DNA of 13,539 nucleotides, from assembly GCA_021808875.1 (NCBI GenBank), contig JAKBAU010000065.1:1-13539 (forward strand). The letters are read 5' to 3'. A program made the position numbers and the translations under genes. Source of the stretch: Pseudomonadota bacterium. GTDB lineage: Bacteria > Pseudomonadota > Alphaproteobacteria > Micropepsales > Micropepsaceae. Positions 1,055 to 12,690 of this stretch are shown here, one piece after another; the stretch's first letter is position 1; every line of letters starts with the position of its first letter. The notes beneath the pieces were generated by a model. That model saw only the letters and a list, made by a program, of their open reading frames with translations, had not been told where the DNA came from and ran no database searches.

Positions 1055-1101
1055 GAGCATCTTTATCCGATCAGATGACTCCATCTGATCGGATGATGCT
1101 C
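1055..1101. terminator. Long hairpin abutting the end of the chemotaxis operon
   Basis: The arms 1055-1077 and 1082-1101 pair over 20 bp, with a 3-base TTT bulge at 1062-1064 and a 4-base loop at 1078-1081. The last base of the right arm is also the last base of the upstream gene's stop codon (minus strand, 1101-1103). The position is right for a transcription end of the minus-strand operon, but no T-tract follows on that strand, so it is not a canonical intrinsic terminator. It may equally protect the mRNA 3' end, or be one copy of a dispersed palindromic repeat of the kind common in alphaproteobacteria. Confidence 0.55.
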
Positions 1102-2816
1102 TAGAACAAGCAATCGTCGAACTTATCATTGTCGTCGGGGTTGACTTCGGCTGGTGGGTCGGCAGATTTGACGCCGACCAGCCCGAGCCGTGCATGCACC
1201 TCGCGTTCGCGCGCCATTGTGTAGAAGCTGCCGATCTGGCCAAGCAACTCACCGGTTGCGCCATCCTGCGCGTCATTCTGTCCGGATGCCTCGGCTAGGG
1301 CGAAGAGCCCGGCGGCCACGCCGGCAATGATATCGCTGACCGCGAGGTGGCGGCCAAGATCGCCGGCGGCGACTTCCAGCATGGCGATGATCCGGACTGC
1401 ATCGTCACCAATTCCTCCGACAGCCTGCTCGACCAGGCTGCAGGCGCCGCGGATGTAACCCAGCGCCTCCATCAACGTCGCGCCAAGGTCCCCTTGGCCC
1501 TCCGCCGCGAGACTGCGCAACCTGGCGCCGACGCCACCCAATTCCGCGATGGCGCGGGTAATGCCGGTTGCAGCCTCGTCGAAGCGTGCCGAATAGGTAC
1601 GAATCTCACTGGCAATCACCGCAATGGCGCGTCCCGCCTGTCCCATTCGCTGCGCGCGCAGGCCGGTGTTGATCGCCATATGCTCGACTTCGCCGCGGAT
1701 CGCCTGGATGATATTGAGGCGCATCTCCAGGTCACCAATCGTCTCGCCGATCGCACCGCCGATCCGCTGTACTGCTGCATTGGTATCACGCAACTGGCCG
1801 GTCACCTGGTTTGCCCCGCTGATCCCCTGCTCCAGGCTTTGCAGGAAGGCGCGGCCCTCCGCGCCGCCCTCACCTATCTGGCGTAGCGCGACCAGCTTTG
1901 CGGCCGCAGGACCTAGATCGCGTAGCGTGCGGGCGAGCAGTTCCGATTCCCGCTCGAATTCGACGAGCGTGTCCTGAAGCTGGGCGGAAAGCAGACGCAG
2001 GATGGTGCCTGCGGCCACACGGCGGTTACCTTCCTTGTCGTGAGTGCAGACGGCATTGAGCAATTGCAGCGCCGCCACGATATGCTCGAGCCGCTGGCGG
2101 GTGGTATCGCCGATCTGAAGCGAGCCGAGAATGATGCCGACTTTGGCCTGGACACCTGCCGCGACAGAACCGACCGTGGCCGCCATCTTCGCGACGCCTT
2201 CCTGGTGCTGCTTCAAACTCTCCGCGTCCCGCGCGAGCTTCTCGGTCACATGCGGAAGCACTCGCCTGCATTGGCTGTCGAGCAGCCACTCCGCTCGTTC
2301 AGCGTCAGTAACATTGTCGGTGAGCGACGTCAGGGTCGCGGCGAAGCCGGCAAACTCGGCTTCACCGACCTTCAGGCGGCGGCTCATATCGTCGACGAAG
2401 ACGACGAATTCCGCCGCACCGCCCGCCGCGATCTTGAGGTTCGTGCCATAGACGCCCAGAACGCGGAATACCTCATGGGCCTGCGAGAGGTCACCGCGCA
2501 ACTGCACCGAGGTATCGCGTATGGCGGTGATTTCTCCGCGCCTCGCATCGCGCGCCGACGACAGGCCGGCAAGTTCGTCCGCGACAACGAGCAGGCTGCG
2601 GATTGCGTTGCCGCCATGCTCGGGATCAAGCGCCGTCGTGATGCCTTTCAGCTCGTCGATAATACGGGTAACGGCGTCAAGCATCTCCATCAGGATAGTG
2701 CCGGCATGGACGAACTTGCCATCAATCCCTGCCGCCATCGACGAGATCTCGTTCTGGATCGCGGCAATGGCGCCGGCGGCATCCACCGACGGGGCGACGA
2801 GGACTTCATGTGACAT
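1101..2816 (-). CDS. Cytosolic receptor-like chemotaxis protein with CheZ-like features
   Basis: This 571-residue protein is the last gene of the chemotaxis operon. No transmembrane segment or signal peptide is visible, so it should be cytosolic and mostly helical. Residues 370-410 (EVEHMAINTGLRAQRMGQAG, then AIAVIASEIRTYSARFDE) are a degenerate version of the receptor signalling tip. Residues 115-150 (VLGVYGTNLKIAAGGA, VFVDDMSRRL) look like a second, weaker copy. Between them, residues 228-246 (GIILGSLQIGDTTRQRLEH) contain D237-x3-Q241, the spacing of the catalytic Asp/Gln of CheZ. The tail DDNDKFDDCLF resembles the CheY-binding C-terminus of CheZ. The start at 2816 is preferred because GGAG lies 8 bases upstream and a longer frame would overlap cheB. 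The gap to cheB is 43 bp. The chemotaxis assignment is firm from context and tip motif; a CheY-phosphatase role is inference. It could instead be a kinase-array component or a CheY-P sink. Confidence 0.8.
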   Translation of the reverse strand: MSHEVLVAPSVDAAGAIAAIQNEISSMAAGIDGKFVHAGTILMEMLDAVTRIIDELKGITTALDPEHGGNAIRSLLVVADELAGLSSARDARRGEITAIRDTSVQLRGDLSQAHEVFRVLGVYGTNLKIAAGGAAEFVVFVDDMSRRLKVGEAEFAGFAATLTSLTDNVTDAERAEWLLDSQCRRVLPHVTEKLARDAESLKQHQEGVAKMAATVGSVAAGVQAKVGIILGSLQIGDTTRQRLEHIVAALQLLNAVCTHDKEGNRRVAAGTILRLLSAQLQDTLVEFERESELLARTLRDLGPAAAKLVALRQIGEGGAEGRAFLQSLEQGISGANQVTGQLRDTNAAVQRIGGAIGETIGDLEMRLNIIQAIRGEVEHMAINTGLRAQRMGQAGRAIAVIASEIRTYSARFDEAATGITRAIAELGGVGARLRSLAAEGQGDLGATLMEALGYIRGACSLVEQAVGGIGDDAVRIIAMLEVAAGDLGRHLAVSDIIAGVAAGLFALAEASGQNDAQDGATGELLGQIGSFYTMAREREVHARLGLVGVKSADPPAEVNPDDNDKFDDCLF

Positions 2817-2859: not shown

Positions 2860-3936
2860 TCATCGGCTGGCGGCGAGCAGGAGCTCGCGCGGGATGGCGT
2901 GAAGCGAGACGATTTTCTCGACCGCACCCCTGGCAATCGCCTCCCTGGGCATGCCGAACACGATCGAGGTCTCCTCGTCCTGGGCGAAGGTGCGCGCACC
3001 GGACTGCCTCATTTCAAGCAGGCCACGGGCGCCGTCGTCGCCCATGCCGGTCATGATCACACCGACCGCATTCGCGCCCGCGCAGCGCGCGGCCGAGCGG
3101 AACAGCACGTCGACCGAGGGACGGTGGCGCGAGACGAGTGGCCCGTCGCGGACCGAAACATGGTAGCGCGCGCCCTCCCGCTCGAGCATCATGTGGCGTC
3201 CGCCGGGCGCGATCAGGACATGGCCGCGCAGCACGGTGTCGCCGTCCTGAGCCTCGCTCACGTCGACCTCGCACAACCCGTTCAGCCGCCGGGCGAAAGC
3301 GGCGGTGAAGCGCTCGGGCATGTGCTGGACAATGACGATGCCGGGAGCGTTGGCAGGCAGGGCCACGAGTATCTCGCGCAGCGCCTCGGTGCCGCCGGTC
3401 GAGGTGCCGAGGCAGACCACCATCTCGGTCGTGCGGCTCATCGCCCTGCCCGAGGGCGGCGGCAGCATGGCGTCGGCGCTGAGCTTCGTCTCGGGCTTCG
3501 CGATCTTCTCGACGCGGCGCCCGCGCACCCTCGCATGCGCCGCTCCCTTCACGGTTTCTCGGATCATCGCCCGCGCCTCGGCAAGATGATCCGCGACGCC
3601 AATGCGAGGCTTGAGGATCACGTCGACCGCTCCCGCCTCGAGCGCCTCGATCAGCGTTTGCGATCCCTCCTCGGTGAGCGACGAGCACATCACCACCGGC
3701 ACCGGGCACTGAGTCATCAGCTTGCGTAGGAACGTGATGCCGTCCATGCGCGGCATCTCGACATCGAGGGTGATGACGTCGGGCACCTCGGCCTGGATAT
3801 GACGCGCCGCGGCGAACGGATCGGCCGCCGCGGCGATCACCCTGATCTCGGGGTCCTCCTCGAGCAGCTGGGTCATGGTCTGGCGGACGCTGGCGCTGTC
3901 GTCGATGACCAGAACTCGGATCTGCTTGATTGCCAT
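2860..3936 (-). CDS. cheB: Chemotaxis methylesterase/glutamine deamidase CheB
   Basis: CheB removes methyl groups from receptor glutamates and can deamidate glutamines, giving adaptation after CheA phosphorylates its receiver domain. The protein has 358 residues, a normal length. The N-terminal receiver spans about residues 5-125, with acidic pair D12/D13, phospho-acceptor D58 (in [11 protein letters not shown]) and K109 in ILKPR. A linker of about 45 residues follows. The C-terminal esterase spans about 170-355, with the triad visible as S179 (GTSTGG), H205 (VQHMPERF) and D301 (TGMGDDGA). The ATG at 3936 is chosen because [13 protein letters not shown] is the usual N-terminus and AAGAGG lies upstream. 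One base separates it from the cheR stop (TGAGATG), so the two enzymes are probably translationally coupled. Confidence 0.97.
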
Positions 3937-3937
3937 C

Positions 3938-4792
3938 TCAGCGCCTCTTGAACACGGTGGTGGCGACGGCATCGAGCGGCAGACCGAAGCCGGCGATTGA
4001 CTCCGAATGGCCCAGCAGCAGCCAGCCTCCTGGCCGGAGCGCCTGGCAGAGCCGGGAGACGACCGCCTTCTGGGTCGGCTTGTCGAAATAGATCAGCACG
4101 TTGCGGCAGAAGATCAGGTCCATTTGCACGCCTACCGGATAGTGGCTGTCCATCAGGTTGAGCTGGGCAAAACCGACCGCCGCGCGAAGCGCCGGCACGA
4201 TCCGCACCTCGTTGCGGCCCCTAACCCTGGGCCAGCAGATATAACGTCCTAGGAACGCGTCGGGTACCGGCTCAACCATCGCGGCCGGATAAATGCCACG
4301 CCGGGCCGTCTCGAGCACGTCGGTGTCGAGATCGGTCGCGAGGATGCCGTAGTCGGGCCCGCCGTGGCGCACGGCGAAATCATCGAGCATCATCGCGATG
4401 GTGTAGGGCTCGGCGCCGGTGGAGCAGGCCGCACTCCACACCCGGATGAACGGTCTGCCCGAGGTCTTGAGTTCCGGCAGGATGATGCGCTCAAGATATT
4501 CGAAATGCCCGGGTTCGCGGAAGAAGTCGGTCTTGTTGGTCGTGACCGCATTGATCAGGTAAGGCGCTTCATCCCGGAGCCCGTCCTCCTTGAACAGAAA
4601 ATCGCAATATCGGTCGAGGCTTTCGATGCCGGTTGCGCGCAGGCGGCGGCGCAAGCGGCCCTCCAGCATGGTACGCTTCGACGGCGGCATCTTGATACCG
4701 GCACGTTCAGAGATGAACACGACAAGCCGCTGGAAGTTGCGGTCGCTAAGGCTGTCGACGGAACGTGTGGCAAGGACGGCGGCGGCAGGCAT
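3938..4792 (-). CDS. cheR: Chemotaxis receptor methyltransferase CheR
   Basis: CheR transfers methyl groups from S-adenosylmethionine to receptor glutamates in the cytosol and opposes CheB. At 284 residues it is of normal length. The N-terminal helical substrate-binding domain spans about residues 15-75 and contains [15 protein letters not shown], the basic patch that contacts the receptor. The SAM-binding domain follows, with TNKTDFFRE (85-93), [18 protein letters not shown] (117-134), [15 protein letters not shown] (150-164) and [13 protein letters not shown] (225-237). The frame extends 74 codons further upstream, but that part is low-complexity read-through of the cheW end. The ATG at 4792 has GGAG 8 bases upstream and gives the usual length. 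A 70-bp gap separates it from cheW, the largest gap inside the operon. Confidence 0.96.
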
Positions 4793-4862: not shown

Positions 4863-5336
4863 TCAGGCGGCTTTTGGGAGCAGCGCCGCTTCGTCTGTCG
4901 AGAAGAGTTTGGCGAGGTTAAGCAGCAGCATGAAGCCGCCATCCTGCCGCACCACGCCCTGGATGTATCCAGAGCGCCAGCGGATACCGATATCTGGCGC
5001 TGGCTCAACCGCATCGGCAGGGACAGCGCTGACGGTCAGTACCCGATCCACCACTAGGCCCAGCGCTAACACCCGCTCGCCGAGCGAGACGTCGACTATG
5101 AGGATGCGGGTGTCACTGGTCGTCTCCACCCGATTGATTCCAAGCCGCAGGCGCAGGTCGACCGTCGGCACGCCCTGACCACGCACATCGGTCAGGCCGA
5201 GAAGCCAGTCGGGGCCGCTCGGGATTCTGAATGCTGGCGCATGATCGAGGATTTCGCGCACCACACCTACCGGAACAGCGAACACTTCCTTATCGAGTCC
5301 GAAGGTGACAAGCTGAATATCCTTCCCGTTGCTCAT
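4863..5336 (-). CDS. cheW: Chemotaxis coupling protein CheW (distal copy)
   Basis: CheW links receptors to the P5 domain of CheA in the cytosolic signalling array. This 157-residue protein covers one CheW domain (about residues 7-145). Landmarks are [20 protein letters not shown] at the start, [20 protein letters not shown] in the middle (the NxRG-type turn), then [24 protein letters not shown] and [12 protein letters not shown]. The ATG overlaps the receptor gene stop (ATGA), so it is probably coupled to receptor translation. It differs clearly from the second CheW at 7040-7546 (for example VRG against FRG at the central turn), so the two are not a recent duplication. The receptor gene lies directly between the two couplers. 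Confidence 0.95.
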
Positions 5337-7012
5337 GCGGCCTCCCCGAATTCGGCGTCTTCGGCATCGGGGCCACCATTTGTCAGGTCGAGCGCAAAGC
5401 CACGCGCCCGGCTCCGGTGATCGGCGACCGAATGAGCGCGGCCGGCCGGCCTGGCCGACCTCGACGGTGGCTTGCGCACCGAAGTGGCGGGCTTGCGCGC
5501 GGCCGGTTTGGCATGCCCACCGTCATTCACCCGGAAATAGGCAATGCTGGCTTGCAGTTCCTCGGCCTGGGCGGCAAGTTCCTCCGAGGTGGACGAGATC
5601 TGTTCGGAAGCTGAGGCATTCTGCTGGGTGGCTTTGTCGAGCTGCTGGATTGCCTCGTTGATCTGGCCGGTGCCGATATCCTGCTCGCGGCAGGCTGCGC
5701 TGATTTCCGAGACGAGTTCGGCGGTCCGGCGGATATCCGGCACCAGTCGACTCAGCATCTCGCCGGCCTCGCTTGCAGCCTTCACAGTCTCCGTCGAGAC
5801 CGATCCGATCTCGGTAGCCGCCGCCTGGCTGCGCTCGGCGAGCTTGCGAACCTCCGATGCCACAACGGCGAAGCCCTTGCCATGCTCGCCAGCACGCGCC
5901 GCCTCAACTGCGGCATTGAGCGCGAGGAGGTCGGTCTGTCTCGCGATCTCCTGCACAATGGAGATCTTTTCGGCGATGGTACGCATCGCCGCGACGGCCT
6001 TGTCGACGGCAACGCCACTCGCTTCGGCGTCGACGGACGATTGGCTCGCGATCTTCTGTGTCTGAGCGGCATTATCGGCATTCTGCTTGATGTTGGCCGC
6101 CATCTGCTCCATCGCCGCCGACGCTTCCTCGGCTGCCGAGGCCTGTTCGGTGGCGCCTTGCGACACCTGCTCCGAGCTGGACGCCAGCTCCAAGCTGCCC
6201 GAGGAAACGTTCTCCGCCGCGGTATTGGCATCGCCGATCACGCCGCGGAGACGCTCCACGGTCGTGTTCAGAGTATGGACAAGATCCTTGATTTCATCAT
6301 TGCTGGTAACACGGACTTCCTGGGTCAGATCACCTTCGGCGACCGCAGCAAGCGCCGAACCGATCAGGCGCAGACCACGGCTCACGACCAGCGCGATCCA
6401 CACACCGCCGACAATCGAGATCAGCAGGGCGATGGAAGCGACGACCAGCAATGTCATGCGTGCATTCGCATAGAGGATATCAGTGGAGACTTCGGCCTGG
6501 CGCATCTGCGCCTTCTGATCGGCCACAACCTTGTTTAATGATTCCTGCATGCCGGCGACGGCCTTGCGGGACTCTCCGATTGAGATCGCGCCGGCCGCGG
6601 CATTGTTGTTCGCGAGGGCGAGCGCGCGGACCCGACTGCTGACGGACTTGTAGGCTTCCCACTCCTGCTGGAAATGCAGCAGGAGCGGCTTGGATTCGCC
6701 TGTCGCCATCCCGATGAGACTGCCAACCATCGAGTCAACCTTTGCGATCCTCGCTTTGGCAGTGGCATTGAACGCCTGATCGAGCGTCGTGTCGCTGGTA
6801 AGCGCCATGTTCTTCTCGGATCGGAGGACGCGGCCGATCTCACCATCCACCTGCTCGGCCAGGCTCAATCGCTTGGCCGGCCCGGTGACAACGTTGTTGA
6901 TGGCGTTGTTGAGCATGCTCATCCGCGAGATGCCGATACCGGCGATAGCCACCATCAGGATAACGAGGATGGCGATGGTTAGGGCTAACTTCAGCTTGAT
7001 CGTTGCGCGCAT
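5333..7012 (-). CDS. Transmembrane methyl-accepting chemotaxis protein
   Basis: This 559-residue receptor senses an unknown ligand and controls CheA through CheW. TM1 lies at about residues 9-28. A periplasmic helical region of about 155 residues follows, consistent with a four-helix-bundle sensor ([20 protein letters not shown]). TM2 is at about 187-211 and HAMP at about 212-264 ([16 protein letters not shown]). The signalling domain spans about 265-495, with the conserved tip [20 protein letters not shown] and [18 protein letters not shown] at about 355-395. Several [14 protein letters not shown] sites look like methylation sites. After the coiled coil comes a Lys/Arg/Pro-rich linker (about 500-540) and the tail [11 protein letters not shown]. 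The classic NWETF-type CheR/CheB tether is not present. The ATG at 7012 has a near-perfect Shine-Dalgarno sequence. The ligand cannot be predicted. Confidence 0.96.
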
Positions 7013-7017
7013 AGTAG

Positions 7018-7024
7018 CCCTCCT
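7018..7024 (-). promoter_or_regulatory. Strong ribosome binding site of the receptor gene
   Basis: On the minus strand the sequence is AGGAGGG followed by a 5-base spacer and ATG. It is the strongest Shine-Dalgarno sequence in the operon. It suggests the receptor is translated independently, at a higher rate than the coupled regulator genes, which fits receptors being more abundant than the other array proteins. Confidence 0.7.
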
Positions 7025-7039
7025 AGGGGCTAAAAAAGG

Positions 7040-7546
7040 TTAGTGGATCGGGGGAGCGGAAGCGCCCGGAGGTGTGCTTCCTGAACTCGTCGGGGCGAAC
7101 ACGGCATGGATGTCGGGCAGCACGACCAGCCCGGCCTCACGCCGGACCAGACCGCGGACCAGTTCGCGCCGCCAGCGCATGCCGATAACGGGCGGCTCCT
7201 CGCTGGAGTTGCGCTCCAGTGTGGTGACCTCATGTACTCGGTCAGCCTTGAGGCCAACCAGCACCTCCTCGCCGCCACGGTCGACGGCGATCACGACGAT
7301 GCGGCTGTCCCGGTTCGCCTCGGTCCGGGCCATGCCGAAGGCGAGGCGCAGGTCGGCGAGAGGAATGATCCGGCCGCGAAAGTTGATGACGCTCGCGACC
7401 AGCGGCGAGGCGCCCGGCACGACGGTTTCGGGCAGGAGATCGAGGATCTCCTGCACGCCCGCGGCCTCGACCGCGAAGGTCTCGCCGGCGAGCTCGAAGG
7501 CAAGCACCTCAAGCTGACCGGCCTCGTTCCAGTGAATGCTGTCCAT
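7040..7546 (-). CDS. cheW: Chemotaxis coupling protein CheW (proximal copy)
   Basis: This second CheW has 168 residues and one CheW domain (about residues 10-155). Motifs include LEVLAFELAGETFAVEAAGV, EILDLLPETVV, VASVINFRGRIIPLADLRLA (the canonical NFRG turn), VGLKADRVHEVTTL, MRWRRELVRGLVRR and LVVLPDIHAVF. It is closer to the textbook CheW pattern than the distal copy and sits directly after cheA, so it is probably the main partner of CheA. The frame extends to 7609, but the ATG at 7546 lies 4 bases after the cheA stop, gives the usual N-terminus, and avoids overlap. A short Pro/Ser-rich tail (SSGSTPPGASAPP) follows the domain. A 27-bp gap precedes the receptor start. Confidence 0.95.
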   Translation of the reverse strand: MDSIHWNEAGQLEVLAFELAGETFAVEAAGVQEILDLLPETVVPGASPLVASVINFRGRIIPLADLRLAFGMARTEANRDSRIVVIAVDRGGEEVLVGLKADRVHEVTTLERNSSEEPPVIGMRWRRELVRGLVRREAGLVVLPDIHAVFAPTSSGSTPPGASAPPIH

Positions 7547-7550
7547 GGCT

Positions 7551-9524
7551 TCAACCGGCGGCACGCAGCCGCTCCTCCTGGGCCTGACCGACGGCGACGA
7601 GCTGGCCAATGTCGAGGATCAAGGCAACGCCGCCGTCGCCGAGGATCGTCGCGCCCGTGAAGGTGGCAACATTGCGGTGCAGGGCTGACATCGGCTTGAT
7701 GACGGTCTGATGATTGCCGATGATCTGGTCGACGACGAGGCCCACGCGTTCCGCGCCGATCCCGACCACGACAATCTTTTGGAACGGATCTGGACGCGTT
7801 CCGGTCTCGAACAGCTCACGCAGGCGCAGGAAGGGCACCAGCCGGTCACGCAGTGTGATCACGCTGCGGCCACGCGATCGCATGTCCTCCTCGAGCGAGA
7901 GTTCGAGGCACTCCTCCACCGCAGCCAATGGAACGACGAAGCGATCGGTTCCCACTCGGACCAGCAGCCCGTCGATGATAGCCAGCGTAAGCGGGATACT
8001 GAGGGTGATTGTCGAACCCTCGCCAGGTCTACTCGCGACGTCGATCCGGCCCCGCAAGCCTTCGACGGTACGCTTTACAACATCCATGCCCACACCGCGA
8101 CCGGAAAGGTTGGTGACCTGAGCAGCGGTTGAGAAACCGGGGTGGAAGATCAGCTGGAACAACTCTCCGTCGCCGAGCTGTTGGCTGGGCAAAACGAGGC
8201 CCTGCGCCTCGGCCTTGGCGCGCACCCGTTCGCGATCAATACCTCTGCCGTCGTCGCAGACGGTGATCAACACGTCGCCGCCGGCCTGACGCGCCGACAG
8301 CTTGACCGTGCCCGTCTCGGACTTGCCGAGCGCGGCGCGCTCCGCCGGTGGTTCAAGACCATGATCGCAACTGTTGCGGACGATGTGGACGAGCGGGTCG
8401 AACAGCCGTTCGACGATGGTCTTGTCGACCTCGGTCGCCTCGCCCTCGGTTACCAGTTCGATCGACTTGGAGGTCTCGCGGGCGAGGTCATGGATCAGCC
8501 GCCGGAACCGTCCGAACAGCGAGGCGACCGGCACCATCCTCAGTACCATTGTGGCATCGCGCATCTCGCCGGCGAGCCGCTCAATCTCCTCCGACACGGA
8601 GCGCAGGGCCAGATCGGTGCCGCCGCCGGCGATCTGCGCAAGCCGGCTCTGCGCGATCACCAATTCTCCCACACGATCCATCAGCGCATCGAGCCGCTCG
8701 GCCGGAACGCGCACGCTCTCTCCCGCACGGGCTTTGGCAGCATGCGCCAGCGGTCCCGAGCCCTCCCCTGGTTCCGGCTTCGTGACCGGCCCTTGCGCGG
8801 CGATGGTCTGTTCGGCGGCGCCGCTCTGGGGCACCTCGTCGGTCGCGAGCGGCTCGATGGTGAGTTCCATATCGTCCATCACGAAGATAAACACGTCTTC
8901 GATCGCACTTTTCGGTGCGTCGGTCATGAGTGTCACGTCCCAGCCGATGTGACACTCCGTTGGGACAAGTTCGGCGAAATCCGGCACCCGATCGGTGCGT
9001 GCGATGATCCGCGCCTCTCCCAACTCGCGCAACTCGTCAAGCAGGACCAGCGGGTTGATCCCATTGGTCATCGCATTCGCGGGCAACCGGAAGGAAAGTT
9101 TCCAACCGGCCCGGTCGGCATTTTTTATCGATGTGTCCAACGCGGTCTCCTCTGCGGCACCGAGTGCGGCATCGAGCCGTGTGAGGATCGCGTCACCGGC
9201 GGTATCGAGACCCCGCCCCCCGTCGATCAGCGCGCGCATATGATCCTGCGCCGAAAGAACTACGGCAATGAGCTCGTGCGTCGCCGTTACCTGCCCCTTG
9301 CGCACCTTGTCGAAGGCACCCTCGCAATGATGGGTGAACTCGGCCAGCGCTTCGAAGCCGAACATCGCCCCCGATCCTTTGAGCGTGTGCAGTCCCCGGA
9401 ACACGGCATTGACGAGGTCCATGTCACCGAGCTGATGACCGAGATCGAGCAACCCCTGCTCGACCTGATCGAGAAGCTCGCCGGCCTCCACGCGGAAGGC
9501 AGCGACCGGATCGTCGCCACTCAA
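7551..9524 (-). CDS. cheA: Chemotaxis histidine kinase CheA
   Basis: CheA autophosphorylates under receptor/CheW control and passes phosphate to CheY and CheB. It has 657 residues. P1 (Hpt) spans about 1-120 with phospho-histidine H46 in FRGLHTLKGSGAMFGF. Region 140-226 (WKLSFRLPANAMTNGINPLV, LLDELRELG) resembles the P2-like domain of many alphaproteobacterial CheA proteins. An Ala/Pro/Glu-rich linker runs about 228-268. P3 dimerisation lies at about 270-330 (ERLDALMDRVGELVIAQSRL). P4 holds the N box DPLVHIVRNSCDHGLE, G1 box VCDDGRGID and G2 box LSGRGVGMDVVK. P5, CheW-like, covers about 517-645. No C-terminal receiver is fused. The start is TTG at 9522-9524, sharing TGA with the cheY stop (TTGA); no ATG or GTG is available upstream in frame, and AAGGTG precedes it. 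Confidence 0.96.
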   Translation of the reverse strand: MSGDDPVAAFRVEAGELLDQVEQGLLDLGHQLGDMDLVNAVFRGLHTLKGSGAMFGFEALAEFTHHCEGAFDKVRKGQVTATHELIAVVLSAQDHMRALIDGGRGLDTAGDAILTRLDAALGAAEETALDTSIKNADRAGWKLSFRLPANAMTNGINPLVLLDELRELGEARIIARTDRVPDFAELVPTECHIGWDVTLMTDAPKSAIEDVFIFVMDDMELTIEPLATDEVPQSGAAEQTIAAQGPVTKPEPGEGSGPLAHAAKARAGESVRVPAERLDALMDRVGELVIAQSRLAQIAGGGTDLALRSVSEEIERLAGEMRDATMVLRMVPVASLFGRFRRLIHDLARETSKSIELVTEGEATEVDKTIVERLFDPLVHIVRNSCDHGLEPPAERAALGKSETGTVKLSARQAGGDVLITVCDDGRGIDRERVRAKAEAQGLVLPSQQLGDGELFQLIFHPGFSTAAQVTNLSGRGVGMDVVKRTVEGLRGRIDVASRPGEGSTITLSIPLTLAIIDGLLVRVGTDRFVVPLAAVEECLELSLEEDMRSRGRSVITLRDRLVPFLRLRELFETGTRPDPFQKIVVVGIGAERVGLVVDQIIGNHQTVIKPMSALHRNVATFTGATILGDGGVALILDIGQLVAVGQAQEERLRAAG

Positions 9525-9889
9525 CGTCCGAGCACCTTCTTGGCAATCTTGACGAGTTGGTCAGGTACGAACGGCTTTACCAACCAGCCGGTGGCACCGG
9601 CGGCCCTGGCCTCGGCCTTCATCTCGCCATCGGATTCGGTGGTAAGAAAAATGATCGGCACACCTGCCTGCGCCGGCCGCTTGCGCAACTCGCGGATCAT
9701 GGACAGTCCGTCCATCCTGGGCATGTTGAGATCGGTGACGATCAGGTCGAAGCGGGTTGCCTCAGCCTTGGCAAGGCCTTCCACACCATCGGCCGCTTCG
9801 TACACCTGATATCCAGCACCGCTCAGCGCGATGCGAATAGCCATGCGAAGACTCGCGGAATCATCCACGGTCAGGATCGAAGCGGTCAT
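9521..9889 (-). CDS. cheY: Chemotaxis response regulator CheY
   Basis: This is a single-domain receiver of 122 residues, phosphorylated by CheA; CheY-P binds the flagellar switch. All key residues are visible: acidic pair D9/D10 (ILTVDDS), phospho-acceptor D53 (IVTDLNMPRMDG), T83 (IIFLTTES), aromatic W102 (TGWLVKPF) and K105. It has no output domain, so it is CheY and not a transcription factor. Its ATG overlaps the stop of the STAS gene (ATGA), and its stop overlaps the cheA start (TTGA), so these three genes are tightly coupled. It is the only free-standing CheY in the window. Alphaproteobacteria often have a second CheY acting as phosphate sink, and none is seen here. Confidence 0.96.
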   Translation of the reverse strand: MTASILTVDDSASLRMAIRIALSGAGYQVYEAADGVEGLAKAEATRFDLIVTDLNMPRMDGLSMIRELRKRPAQAGVPIIFLTTESDGEMKAEARAAGATGWLVKPFVPDQLVKIAKKVLGR

Positions 9890-10200
9890 TGCTGCTGTTC
9901 TCCGTGAAGCCAGAAGGCGATATCGTCGGCCGATGCGGCGGCGGTGAAGCCGGCACGGTCGAGCTGTTGCGCGAGCGCCGGACCGGCGGTCCGAAGGAGA
10001 CGGAGCGACTTGCCCTCTTTGCTGCAGCAGCGCCGCGCCGCCTCGACCAGTTGCAGGAAACTGAGATCAAGTTCGCACGTATCTGCCAGATCGAGCGCAA
10101 TGTCGGCGTGCGCAGCGATCGCCGCCTCTATATCGTTATGAAGTCGAACTATAGAGGCGATGGTGGATGACGCGCCTACCGCGACGACGATGTTCGACAT
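9886..10200 (-). CDS. STAS-domain protein, first gene of the chemotaxis operon
   Basis: This 104-residue protein covers one STAS domain (sulfate transporter/anti-sigma antagonist fold). LHNDIEAAIAAHADIALDLA is the strand preceding the switch region. CELDLSFLQLVEAARRCCSK holds the S47 position where SpoIIAA-type proteins are phosphorylated, and GKSLRLLRTAGPALAQQL and FWLHGEQQQ close the fold. An STAS gene just upstream of cheY is a recurrent feature of alphaproteobacterial chemotaxis operons. Its role there is not settled, and a link to partner switching or array regulation is only inference. The ATG at 10200 is chosen because GAGGAG lies at 10207-10212 with a 6-base spacer. The longer frame to 10257 adds an Arg-rich stretch without domain similarity. 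Its stop overlaps the cheY start. Confidence 0.88.
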   Translation of the reverse strand: MSNIVVAVGASSTIASIVRLHNDIEAAIAAHADIALDLADTCELDLSFLQLVEAARRCCSKEGKSLRLLRTAGPALAQQLDRAGFTAAASADDIAFWLHGEQQQ

Positions 10201-10206
10201 GAGATA

Positions 10207-10212
10207 CTCCTC
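10207..10212 (-). promoter_or_regulatory. Ribosome binding site deciding the STAS gene start
   Basis: GAGGAG on the minus strand lies 6 bases before the ATG at 10200. It supports this start over the upstream in-frame start at 10257. Confidence 0.7.
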
Positions 10213-10483
10213 GGGTGATGACGAGCGGCGCCGATCAGCAGCAGCCAGACGGACCAAAACACTACCAGCTCAGGCCATGTCGCATCGGACGGGCAGAAAC
10301 CCGGATCGGGGATGCTAATCTTCAGGTGCTGTCGCGGCCACAGTCAAACCTATCCGGTGTGGATCGGACAAATCGTGTCGCTCGCGTATATGCGAAACCT
10401 GTTATCCGCGACCGCTTGCTTGCATGGCACTGGCGGTATTTTACTAACGTTTTCGCAAGTATATCCAGGCAACACAAAAACCC

Positions 10484-10579
10484 CCTTCGGGTCGACTCAT
10501 GCTGTGGGTCGACACGATGGGTCTAGGACCAAAACATCTTATTTTGGTTAACTCCAACACGAGTGCGTGTGCCTTTTTT
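10484..10579 (+). ncRNA. Candidate structured small RNA, four stem-loops and T tract
   Basis: Consecutive inverted repeats are packed into under 100 bp. GTCGACTCA (10491-10499) pairs with TGGGTCGAC (10505-10513), 9 bp including one G-U. GGTC (10520-10523) pairs with GACC (10527-10530). ACCAAAA (10528-10534) pairs with TTTTGGT (10542-10548), sharing bases with the previous stem so that the two are alternatives. ACACG pairs with CGTGT, followed by GCC and six T. The pattern suits a small RNA with an intrinsic terminator read rightward. It may instead be the structured leader or terminator of a lost gene. No RNA family is recognised and no clear promoter was found. Confidence 0.25.
10557..10579 (+). 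terminator. Candidate rho-independent terminator
   Basis: A 5-bp stem (ACACG at 10557-10561 with CGTGT at 10566-10570) encloses the loop AGTG and is followed by GCC and TTTTTT. The orientation is plus. No plus-strand protein gene ends just upstream, so it would terminate either a small RNA or stray transcription. The stem is short, so confidence is limited. Confidence 0.4.
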
Positions 10580-10772
10580 CATGGGCCGATCGTGTCGCTG
10601 CTGTTGGTGTATGAGGCCGCTGATCAGCCTTCCGGCGTGACCTGTCGAGAGTCTGACGTCGGCGGGCTGATTGGCGGCTCAGAACGCCGTGGTGCACGCG
10701 TTGATGTTGCCTTCGTATAGCTCGTTCTTATTCACATCAGCGCTGCGGGTCGGAGAAATCTTTGAAGCAAAA

Positions 10773-10787
10773 TCGTCGCGGCGACGA
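10773..10787. promoter_or_regulatory. 15-bp dyad, possible operator of the primase-polymerase gene
   Basis: TCGTCGC, G, GCGACGA is a perfect 7-bp inverted repeat around a single base. It ends 41 bp before the ATG at 10829. A one-base centre suits a dimeric repressor site better than an RNA hairpin. The HTH protein at 12400-12690 is one possible binder, but nothing in the sequence ties the two together. Confidence 0.3.
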
Positions 10788-10828
10788 AAGTGGGAAAGTG
10801 TGGCTGCTCCCTTGAGTTGGAGCTGTTC

Positions 10829-12073
10829 ATGCCTTCAGAAGTCCTGGAATGCAATCGCGTCGCACTGGATCTAGCGGACCGATATAATTCCGTAGAAATA
10901 TCGCAAAATCAGTTAATTGAGCCATTCAGATCAATGGCTGTCCGGGCTGCCTCGCATGGGTTCGCGGTCATTCCGTGCGGCGGTGCTGATGACCCGTCCG
11001 GCAAGCGCCCCCTGATCAAATGGGGGAACTTCAAGTCGCCGCCGGGCATGGAGGTCGTCGCTGGATGGGCGGCACGCCCAGCGTTCGGCGCGGCCAATCT
11101 CGGCATCATCACCGGGCTATCCGGCGTGACGGTCGTCGATTGCGACACGCCCGGGTGTCTATCCAAGCTCTACGAACTGTTCGGCGAGACACCGATCGTG
11201 GTGACCACCCCGAGTGGCGGCCTGCACCTCTATTTTCGCTCCTCGGGCGAGCGATGCGGGCCGTTCCGGGTCGGCGACATCAAGGGTGACATCAAGGGGC
11301 ATGGTGGCTTTGTGGTTGGCCCGCCCAGTGGTCGCATCGTGGCCGGGCAGCAGAGGGCCTATCGGTTCCTGGAGGGCGACTGGTCACTGCGCGAGATCCT
11401 GCCGCCGATCAGGCCGGGCACGCCGCTCGGCGAGCATGGGGCGCGGATTATCGCATTCCGTCCTCGATCCGGCGGCACCCACAAGGACAGCTCGCAGGAC
11501 GGCCAATCTGCGGAGATCCGGCCGCAACGCACGCCGCAACGCACTCAGGTCGAGCGGTTGCCCGATCAGCCGCCAAGCGGTCGGGTTGTCGATGGCGCCC
11601 GCAACCAGAGCCTGTTCGCCGCGCTGAGGCGGGAAGCGCTCACCGCGTCCGACGAGGAGGCTCTTGTCCGGAAGGCGGTTGCGATCAACGAGACGTACGA
11701 CCCGCCGCTCGACCTCGCGGAGGTGCGCAAGGTCGCGGCATCGGTCTGGCGCTACAAGAGCGAAGGCCGCCTCCTCGGCGCTGGGGAACAGGCCATAATC
11801 ACCCGCGCCGAGACGTTCGGTGCGCTCCGCGCCCATCCTGGTGGCGCGGATGCGCTCATGCTGCTCGCCCAGCTACAGTTCAGCCATGGCGCGGAGCCCG
11901 GCAAGCGGTTCGCCATCGCGCCCAAGGCGATGGAGAGGGACGCTATGTTCAAGAAATGGACGGTGCGCCGCTATCGCAAGGCGATCGCCACGCTGAAGGA
12001 ACTCGAGCTGATCCGGCAGGTGCGCAAGGGTGGCAAGCGGAAAGGCGATCCGCATCTCTACGTCCTCGATTGA
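10829..12073 (+). CDS. Bifunctional DNA primase/polymerase with PriCT-1-like and winged-helix regions
   Basis: This 414-residue protein is a replication primase of the archaeo-eukaryotic (Prim-Pol) superfamily, typical of plasmids, phages and integrative elements. The N-terminal catalytic domain spans about 35-190: GFAVIPC and KRPLIKWGNF, metal-binding D104 and D106 in VTVVDCDTPG, H133 in SGGLHLYFR, and the third acidic position in GDIKGDIKGHGGFVVGPPSG. A charged Arg/Gln/Pro linker (about 212-250) follows. Residues 251-315 (GRVVDGARNQSLFAALRREA, then EVRKVAASVWRYKSEGRL) match the PriCT-1 primase C-terminal pattern. Residues 370-414 look like a winged helix (RRYRKAIATLKELELIRQVR). No helicase (Walker A) domain is present, so a partner helicase would be needed. 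The ATG at 10829 follows GGAG by 6 bases and is preferred to GTG at 10790. Confidence 0.88.
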   Translation: MPSEVLECNRVALDLADRYNSVEISQNQLIEPFRSMAVRAASHGFAVIPCGGADDPSGKRPLIKWGNFKSPPGMEVVAGWAARPAFGAANLGIITGLSGVTVVDCDTPGCLSKLYELFGETPIVVTTPSGGLHLYFRSSGERCGPFRVGDIKGDIKGHGGFVVGPPSGRIVAGQQRAYRFLEGDWSLREILPPIRPGTPLGEHGARIIAFRPRSGGTHKDSSQDGQSAEIRPQRTPQRTQVERLPDQPPSGRVVDGARNQSLFAALRREALTASDEEALVRKAVAINETYDPPLDLAEVRKVAASVWRYKSEGRLLGAGEQAIITRAETFGALRAHPGGADALMLLAQLQFSHGAEPGKRFAIAPKAMERDAMFKKWTVRRYRKAIATLKELELIRQVRKGGKRKGDPHLYVLD

Positions 12074-12399
12074 TGCCTTGCTGTTTCGCACCCCCGGCTC
12101 CCCCCAAGGGTTCAATTCCTGAACCCAATATAACTCTACACCGCCCCCCGGCGGGGATGGGGAGGTGAGGCAGGCGAGCATCCTGCCGGAGGCCACCCGG
12201 GTCTTCGGTGCTTTTCCCCCACCCATGGTCGGATTTTCCCTCTCTTCTCCTCCAAAACCAGGGCGAAAAATAATTTGCGGCCCGCGCGCGGCCGATCTGG
12301 CGCGCATCTAGGCCTCGTTCGGGCGCAGCAAGGCGCCGCGGTCGTGCTGGCGACGAAGCCCTCCGATACTCGCGCAGGCGAACAACAAGGGGGCGTAAG
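12074..12399. other. Hairpin-rich intergenic stretch in the island
   Basis: No credible gene is seen in these 326 bp; a long antisense frame crossing it is low-complexity shadow. It contains a perfect stem (12108-12126), a C/G-rich stem CCGCC-CCC-GGCGG followed by clustered G runs (about 12141-12170), and a 6-bp stem GGCAGG/CCTGCC (12169-12187). An isolated AT run, AAAAATAATTT (12266-12276), lies inside GC-rich sequence. The ribosome binding site of the next gene is AAGGGGG at 12387-12393. An untranslated leader, terminator cluster or replication origin are all possible. Confidence 0.5.
12108..12126. repeat. Perfect 7-bp inverted repeat after the primase-polymerase gene
   Basis: GGGTTCA, loop ATTCC, TGAACCC lies 34 bp after the stop codon. 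No T tract follows on either strand, so intrinsic termination is doubtful. It could stabilise the mRNA end or be a protein-binding site. Confidence 0.45.
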
Positions 12400-12690
12400 A
12401 TGGCGAGACTGACGAACGATACATCCGATCCGGCTGGGTTGGGGGCAACTGACGAAGCGGGCGGTGGATCACCTGGGCGGCCAGCGCGCCAGCGCGCGGT
12501 GCCGGGGTTTCTGGATATCGGCGAGGTGGCGGCGCTGTTCGGCCGGGCGCGGCGGACGATCCGCTGGTGGATTGCGACGGGAAGGCTGCCGGTGGTCAGG
12601 ATCGGGCGCACCCCGTTCGTGCCCGAGACCGCGATCAGCGCGCTGCTCGGAACGGCCTGCGTCAGCGATCCGGATGGTGCGGAACAATGA
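12400..12690 (+). CDS. Small helix-turn-helix protein (excisionase/MerR-type fold)
   Basis: This 96-residue protein carries one winged helix-turn-helix of the HTH_17/excisionase type. FLDIGEVAALFGRARRTIRW (about residues 37-56) is the helix-turn-helix, followed by WIATGRLPVVRIGRTPFVPE (about 57-76), the wing with the typical GRLP and IGRT turns, and a short helix AISALLG. The first 35 residues are Gly/Ala/Pro-rich and probably disordered. Proteins of this type act as recombination directionality factors beside integrases or as small transcription regulators. The neighbouring recombinase supports the first role, but that is inference. The ATG at 12400 has AAGGGGG 6 bases upstream, which fixes the start. 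Confidence 0.82.
   Translation: MARLTNDTSDPAGLGATDEAGGGSPGRPARQRAVPGFLDIGEVAALFGRARRTIRWWIATGRLPVVRIGRTPFVPETAISALLGTACVSDPDGAEQ

Follow-up and report, generated by a model that had tools for sequence, protein, structure and literature searches.

The last gene of a chemotaxis operon in the window (the whole stretch of 13,539 nucleotides analysed) codes for a protein of 571 residues (P0001), here called X, which is probably a soluble phosphatase of CheY-P that uses CheZ-type chemistry on a scaffold of two tandem chemoreceptor signalling hairpins. The motifs of X are conserved, its hairpin is duplicated, its putative catalytic helix is homologous to the one of CheZ at the level of profiles, and its gene is linked to che genes. 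Among the matches listed, the open-access literature gave no receptor-derived protein with a CheZ-type helix and a docking tail. The features of X and of the other operon genes are collected in Table 1.

Table 1. Features of X and of its operon, in positions of the window
Feature	Positions	Strand	Basis
X (P0001, 571 aa): two tandem receptor hairpins with a CheZ-like helix and a tail at the C-terminus	1101..2816	minus	ORF, conservation, profile comparison
Module 1 (residues 25-265): degenerate tip near 120-145, catalytic-like helix 234-259	2022..2744	minus	hhalign and predicted model
Residues 234-245, QIGDTTRQRLEH: D237/Q241 aligned with the D-x-x-x-Q pair of CheZ	2082..2117	minus	conservation, CheZ register
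Module 2 (residues 266-550): receptor hairpin, tip ~376-409	1167..2021	minus	hhalign, tip columns
Residues 532-541, YTMAREREVH: YTxxxERxxH motif	1194..1223	minus	Y, T, E, R, H invariant in 32/32
Residues 562-571, DNDKFDDCLF: acidic-hydrophobic tail, proposed CheY docking peptide	1104..1133	minus	conserved tail, predicted short helix
CheB	2860..3936	minus	PF01339, PF00072; start codon chosen by eye
CheR	3938..4789	minus	PF01739, PF03705; start codon chosen by eye
CheW, second copy	4863..5336	minus	PF01584
MCP with HAMP and 4HB sensor	5333..7012	minus	PF00015, PF00672, PF12729
CheW, first copy	7040..7546	minus	PF01584; start codon chosen by eye
CheA	7551..9524	minus	PF01627, PF02895, PF02518, PF01584
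CheY, proposed substrate; D9, D10, D53, T83, K105 present	9521..9889	minus	PF00072
STAS-domain protein, first operon gene	9886..10200	minus	PF13466; start codon chosen by eye

Genomic Context of X

The operon lies on the minus strand in the order STAS-CheY-CheA-CheW-MCP-CheW-CheR-CheB-X. Signal termination is a necessary step of chemotaxis, and the models of CheZ, CheC, and CheX have no match in the nine operon products at E up to 1. This bears out the original prediction, in which none of the three was seen, and the lack of CheC and CheX matches sets the operon apart from systems with CheC, CheX, or FliY. In gene content, the operon resembles the F8-class accessory che clusters of rhizobia (Rhizobium leguminosarum Che2, Bradyrhizobium diazoefficiens che3), although no phosphatase and no STAS gene is mentioned in the passages of the source on these clusters (PMC8429497).

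Like CheZ, X sits in chemotaxis gene clusters. Its gene lies inside or next to a che cluster at 25 of the 26 loci fetched, including 10 of the 11 plasmid loci, and all 15 X-type genome loci have at least one che gene beside X (CheB only in L130). No che cluster occurs within 12 kb in the Rhizobium plasmid locus L087. Sphingomonas, Novosphingobium, Methylosinus, and Azospirillum have the X gene downstream of CheB, within one operon; in Shinella, in Agrobacterium, and at one locus of Rhizobium, it is on the opposite strand at the cluster edge. Divergence is far greater for X than for its neighbour genes: between the window and Novosphingobium, identity is 33% for X, against 81% for CheB and 79% for CheY.

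Some observations concern the DNA around the operon. Directly past the stop codon of X lies a palindrome, CCGATCAGATG-ACTC-CATCTGATCGG (1067-1092), and this pattern is found in 0 of the 194 fetched loci. Past the 3′ end of the operon, an integrase-core fragment (PF13683, 617-949) resembles annotated IS3 transposases of Roseomonas plasmids. The other strand carries a Prim-Pol/PriCT-1 primase and a helix-turn-helix gene (10790-12690), which suggest that mobile DNA adjoins the operon. Positions 6941-11302 have 100% identity to the entire contig C182 (4365 bases) of genome G001. Other matches between G001 and the window are weak; C182 may have been misbinned, or may be mobile DNA that is shared.

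Doubled Hairpin, Motifs, and Tail

The signalling domain of MCPs (PF00015, MCPsignal) matches residues 355-426 of X with 24.2 bits, under the Pfam cut-off of 34.6, in agreement with the degenerate receptor tip originally ascribed to the last gene of the operon. No HAMP or sensor domain has a Pfam match in X. Compared by profile with five single-module proteins (see following section), X matches twice, over residues 268-547 (E 9.6e-18) and over residues 20-259 (E 5.3e-12), and its halves also match one another (E 2.6e-6, score 47.7, the maximum of 60 shuffles being 32.1). Hence, X is a tandem duplication of a receptor hairpin. In hhalign comparisons, modules 1 and 2 match the single-module family at E 2e-16 and E 8.9e-22, and ordinary MCPs at E 1.8e-4 and E 7e-13, respectively. 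To judge from these profiles, the hairpins of X share ancestry with those of MCPs, the likeness being weaker for module 1, although X differs from the MCP signalling domain in its sub-threshold Pfam score, in having no HAMP or sensor match, and in the loss of the tip glutamate.

Module 1 still has the D-x-x-x-Q helix, but most of its tip sequence is gone. Within the tip of module 2, N383 and G395 are invariant, and the conserved Glu is replaced by R or K in 28 of the 32 aligned members and is never E, so that the canonical N-x-x-x-E is not found there, N383 being present in 32/32 but the Glu absent. Nor do the 32 members have a conserved DxxxQ at the corresponding place of module 2. X had originally been described as evolved from, or fused to, a receptor; the receptor origin and, by profile comparison, the CheZ-related helix stand, but the wording is too simple, as the real layout is a duplicated hairpin with DxxxQ in module 1 and the tip in module 2.

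With two receptor-like hairpins in one chain, X might be a structural protein that organises arrays, its DxxxQ helix being a structural element of the bundle. A protein of this kind is DosM of Vibrio cholerae, which is like X in its two receptor-type signalling hairpins per chain, spans two baseplates, and stabilises F9 arrays (PMC7534058); the comparison is by description only, and the parts of the source on DosM mention neither DxxxQ nor a tail. Such a role is quite unlikely for X, both of whose tips are degenerate, with R or K at the tip Glu of module 2 and most of the tip gone from module 1, and a scaffold needs neither an invariant polar D/Q pair in the register of CheZ nor a docking-like tail.

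The case for a phosphatase involves the conservation of the motifs among homologues of X. These come from a protein search (nine proteins including P0001), from plasmid records (15, of Sphingomonas, Novosphingobium, Shinella, Rhizobium, Agrobacterium, Methylosinus, and Azospirillum, with 11 of the 15 loci fetched), and from a phylum search in which 155 of 398 genomes matched, mostly in the receptor tip region, the best 16 being taken further. The alignment holds 32 members with a median pairwise identity of 22%. It leaves out P0008 (a near-copy of P0007), P0009 (N-truncated), L088 (close to L085), L144 (a short frame of 385 aa), L145 (single-module type), and the later-added P0025-P0027, and the N-termini of L130-L143 were trimmed by script beforehand. 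The named members are all from alphaproteobacteria, and the family is uncharacterised; one full-length member (L142) is in G793, a genome of the same class as G001. The annotations met are 'hypothetical protein', 'chemotaxis protein', 'type VII secretion target', and 'MlaD'. The records with the last two names (H5, H6, and P0002) are apparently misnamed long-helix proteins.

The D237-x-x-x-Q241 of the original prediction is present as D237-T-T-R-Q241 within SLQIGDTTRQRLEH in the translation of X, and the predicted structure has a helix at 234-259. The spacing alone says little, because D-x-x-x-Q occurs twice in P0001 (positions 101 and 237) against a mean of 1.6 in residue shuffles, and because D...Q is found in a comparable stretch of 31 of the 88 receptor-tip ORFs without the fuller motif. 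It is conservation, not spacing, that marks the motifs as real and beyond chance: F35, L42, Q234, D237, Q241, R242, H245, N383, G395, Y532, T533, E537, R538, and H541 are invariant (32/32 aligned), and G236 (31/32), R240 (30/32), and E244 (31/32) are nearly so. Q..D...Q occurs in all 16 best matches of the phylum search, the profile of which itself contained the motif, and Y-T-x-x-x-E-R-x-x-H occurs in 15 of these 16, with the exception of the short frame L144.

The C-terminus of X, DNDKFDDCLF, contains the DKFDDCLF that had been likened to the tail of CheZ, and an acidic tail ending in F is kept across homologues. The last residue is F in 29 of 32, and the other three have one extra residue beyond F (DDILFA, VDEFFL, and DDDIFL); the last 14 residues include three to eight D or E. 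In the predicted structure, the tail of X is a short helix (563-570) behind a disordered linker (pLDDT <50). Free variation of D237, Q241, and the tail, named beforehand as an argument against a phosphatase, is not seen, the pair being invariant in 32/32 and the tail kept. The C-terminus of P0003 consists of four tandem DDGLF units, as though the docking peptide had multiplied. In P0007 and P0008, GIAPI/GIVPA-type repeats of differing lengths extend the linker ahead of the tail.

Conserved elements of putative binding would also fit a non-catalytic binder or buffer that inherited the CheZ-like helix and tail, and whose main role is to sequester CheY-P or recruit it to the array, and R240, beside Q241, is indeed C or L in 2 of the 32 homologues. 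This reading is unlikely, since a mere binder is expected to lose either D237 or Q241, the catalytic pair of CheZ, and both are invariant in 32/32.

Single-Module Relatives and CheZ

An order-level search provides a smaller relative of X, L021, of 326 aa, with a canonical receptor tip, the sequence LQFQDRVSQIL, and a terminal FF. Its gene is directly ahead of CheY, STAS, and CheA, and L021-like proteins of Aeromonas and Pseudomonas plasmids are found ahead of a response regulator, STAS, and CheA. In single-module relatives the tip is canonical, QF(Q/E)DxxxQ is present, and the chain ends in (F/L/M)F; their Y(T/A)TxEQRxxH echoes the YTxxxERxxH of X. Both named records of this type are annotated 'methyl-accepting chemotaxis protein'; because the names of X and of the single-module proteins differ, their shared feature is invisible in the annotations met.

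A search for the single-module type matched 64 of 274 genomes and returned 30 loci, 26 of which contain a motif-bearing tip ORF; in L153, L154, L161, and L165 no ORF fits the tip pattern, and these four were left aside. A second tip ORF, without the motif, is found in L158. L146-L152, L155-L160, L162-L164, L166-L175, L128, and L129 have receptor-tip proteins that carry an LQF(Q/E)DxxxQ-type motif and end in (F/L/M)F, most of them close to a cheY-like gene. The 32 sequences of the single-module set were selected for carrying the motif. From the tip Asn to the catalytic Asp, chosen by motif search in a 30-residue stretch, the distance is 115 in 30 of them and 117 in the other 2, and the matching distance in the 32 X proteins is 115 in 13, 111 in 18, and 116 in 1. 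Among the 120 distinct MCP-tip ORFs of the fetched loci, an (F/L/M)F end is present in 32/32 with Qh.D...Q and in 0/88 without it (Fisher p 7e-30, a value that overstates independence, given the kinship among the sequences, many of which were obtained as homologues). It is proposed that X descends from, or shares an ancestor with, the single-module proteins; these retain the receptor tip in its canonical form and are possibly phosphatases borne on arrays.

The loci also bear on the partner of X. In several of them X adjoins cheB or lies on the other strand at the cluster edge, and CheB carries a receiver domain of its own, so that X might bind or dephosphorylate this domain, or another receiver protein, instead of the CheY of the operon. 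This is highly improbable, given that a CheY-like match lies within about 1.5 kb on each side of single-module-type matches in 27 of 30 loci.

As a candidate CheY-P phosphatase, X is best compared with CheZ by profiles. The hhalign profiles were made from the 32 single-module sequences, 35 CheZ, and 32 sampled from 89 ordinary MCPs. The CheZ sequences were chosen with a filter on motif and tail, leaving out L068, L075, L176, L182, L183, and L188; L074 and L078 stand for one and the same protein. The single-module family matches CheZ with a score of 55.9 (E 2e-7), D-x-x-x-Q falling on D-x-x-x-Q, and module 1 with a score of 37.1 (E 7.8e-5) over 54 columns, again with D-x-x-x-Q in register, whereas ordinary MCPs match the CheZ profile at E 0.22. 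The maxima over 100 heptad-block shuffles of CheZ are 34.7 for the single-module family and 27.4 for module 1, and reversed CheZ scores 28.0 and 21.1, respectively. With the motif masked, the single-module family still scores 36.4 against CheZ, and module 1 drops to 24.1, under the null 95% level of 25.1; hence, the CheZ signal of X sits in the motif helix. With a first, smaller CheZ set, the single-module family scored 31.2 against a null maximum of 26.3, and unmasked module 1 scored 21.2 against a null 95% level of 23.5.

Comparisons with single sequences give less. The Pfam model of CheZ (PF04344) does not match P0001 at E up to 10; it is not among the matches listed for 18 members (25 of 50 families), nor among those listed for L021, P0006, and P0010. 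Two receptor-tip proteins with the motif match it weakly, L076 with 23.6 bits and L186 with 25.5, for a cut-off of 30.7. The CheZ HMM built here gives best scores of 29.8 bits for single-module proteins, 15.9 for X, and 12.6 for MCPs, and a structure search does not have CheZ among the matches listed. Because the HMM scores X so close to MCPs, the link between X and CheZ is one of profile-profile comparison and of an intermediate family; as the HMM and Pfam matches are weak, it is good for profiles and not for single sequences.

The likeness to CheZ includes the active-site helix, with the D-x-x-x-Q pair in register and invariant in X (32/32), and probably the acidic-hydrophobic C-terminal tail, which in X follows a predicted linker and is a putative CheY-binding helix. 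The tails of fetched CheZ (e.g., SQDDIDALFD) and of X (e.g., DEDLFADALF) are alike. In CheZ, an AXXFQ motif is directly ahead of DXXXQ (PMC7750401), and most members of X read (A/S)-x-Q-h-G-D-x-x-x-Q; for example, ACNFQDLTGQRISKV of some fetched CheZ proteins resembles ALQIGDITRQRIEH of some X members, the X of the window having SLQIGDTTRQRLEH. The differences are that X has 571 aa and two receptor-like hairpins, against a single hairpin of ~200 residues (in a dimeric four-helix bundle) in CheZ, that the residue before the catalytic Asp is G in X (31/32) and not Q, and that X has the extra invariant YTxxxERxxH.

Proposed Mechanism and Its Meaning

In E. coli CheZ, the acidic residue that pairs with the lysine of CheY is D143. 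The chemistry is such that Gln147 of CheZ orients a water at the phosphoaspartate of CheY, while the lysine of CheY is paired with an acidic residue (PMC3035606). For X, we infer binding, catalysis, and localisation as follows. Because of the likeness to the CheZ motif and of the D9, D10, D53, T83, and K105 of the operon CheY, D237 and Q241 are the proposed catalytic pair and the tail the proposed docking peptide. The conservation of the acidic-hydrophobic tail and its likeness to that of CheZ suggest that, on its flexible linker, it would dock on the CheY-P of the same operon, after which helix 234-259 would meet the active site of CheY. If the chemistry is the one of CheZ, D237 would pair with K105 of CheY, and Q241 would position a water to attack the aspartyl phosphate. 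The receptor-like rod would give the helical bundle, and perhaps ties the enzyme to the array.

Alphaproteobacteria own other DXXXQ phosphatases, as shown by CheT of Sinorhizobium meliloti, a rhizobial CheY phosphatase with a DXXXQ motif and a sequence unlike known chemotaxis proteins (review PMC12654446). Compared by description only, CheT is like X in its DXXXQ and differs from it in having a CheZ-like predicted structure and a complex with CheR, and the passages of the review on CheT do not mention receptor hairpins (PMC12654446).

The distribution of known phosphatases is split. Among the 16 genomes with X (15) or with the single-module type only (G536), eight have no matches to CheZ, CheC, or CheX, and the other eight have CheZ (PF04344), two of these also having CheC and one CheX. 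The original suggestion that X fills the missing termination step of the pathway is only partly right. Because half of the genomes have no such matches, X could be their sole enzyme of the CheZ, CheC, and CheX kinds, CheT being outside this count.

These data suggest that some bacteria built an 'off switch' from their own receptors. Tentatively, receptor-derived phosphatases may even form a widespread class, in which single-module proteins with a canonical tip, a CheZ-type helix that keeps an almost constant spacing (115 residues) to this tip, and a tail in (F/L/M)F would be array-embedded CheY-P phosphatases, the X family would be their derivative, and CheZ may stem from such a hairpin that lost its tip. 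In some che clusters no phosphatase is seen, and a receptor-derived relative of CheZ, if confirmed, would supply termination in at least some accessory clusters. It would also unite phosphatase and receptor scaffold in one polypeptide and provide a concrete hypothesis on the origin of CheZ.
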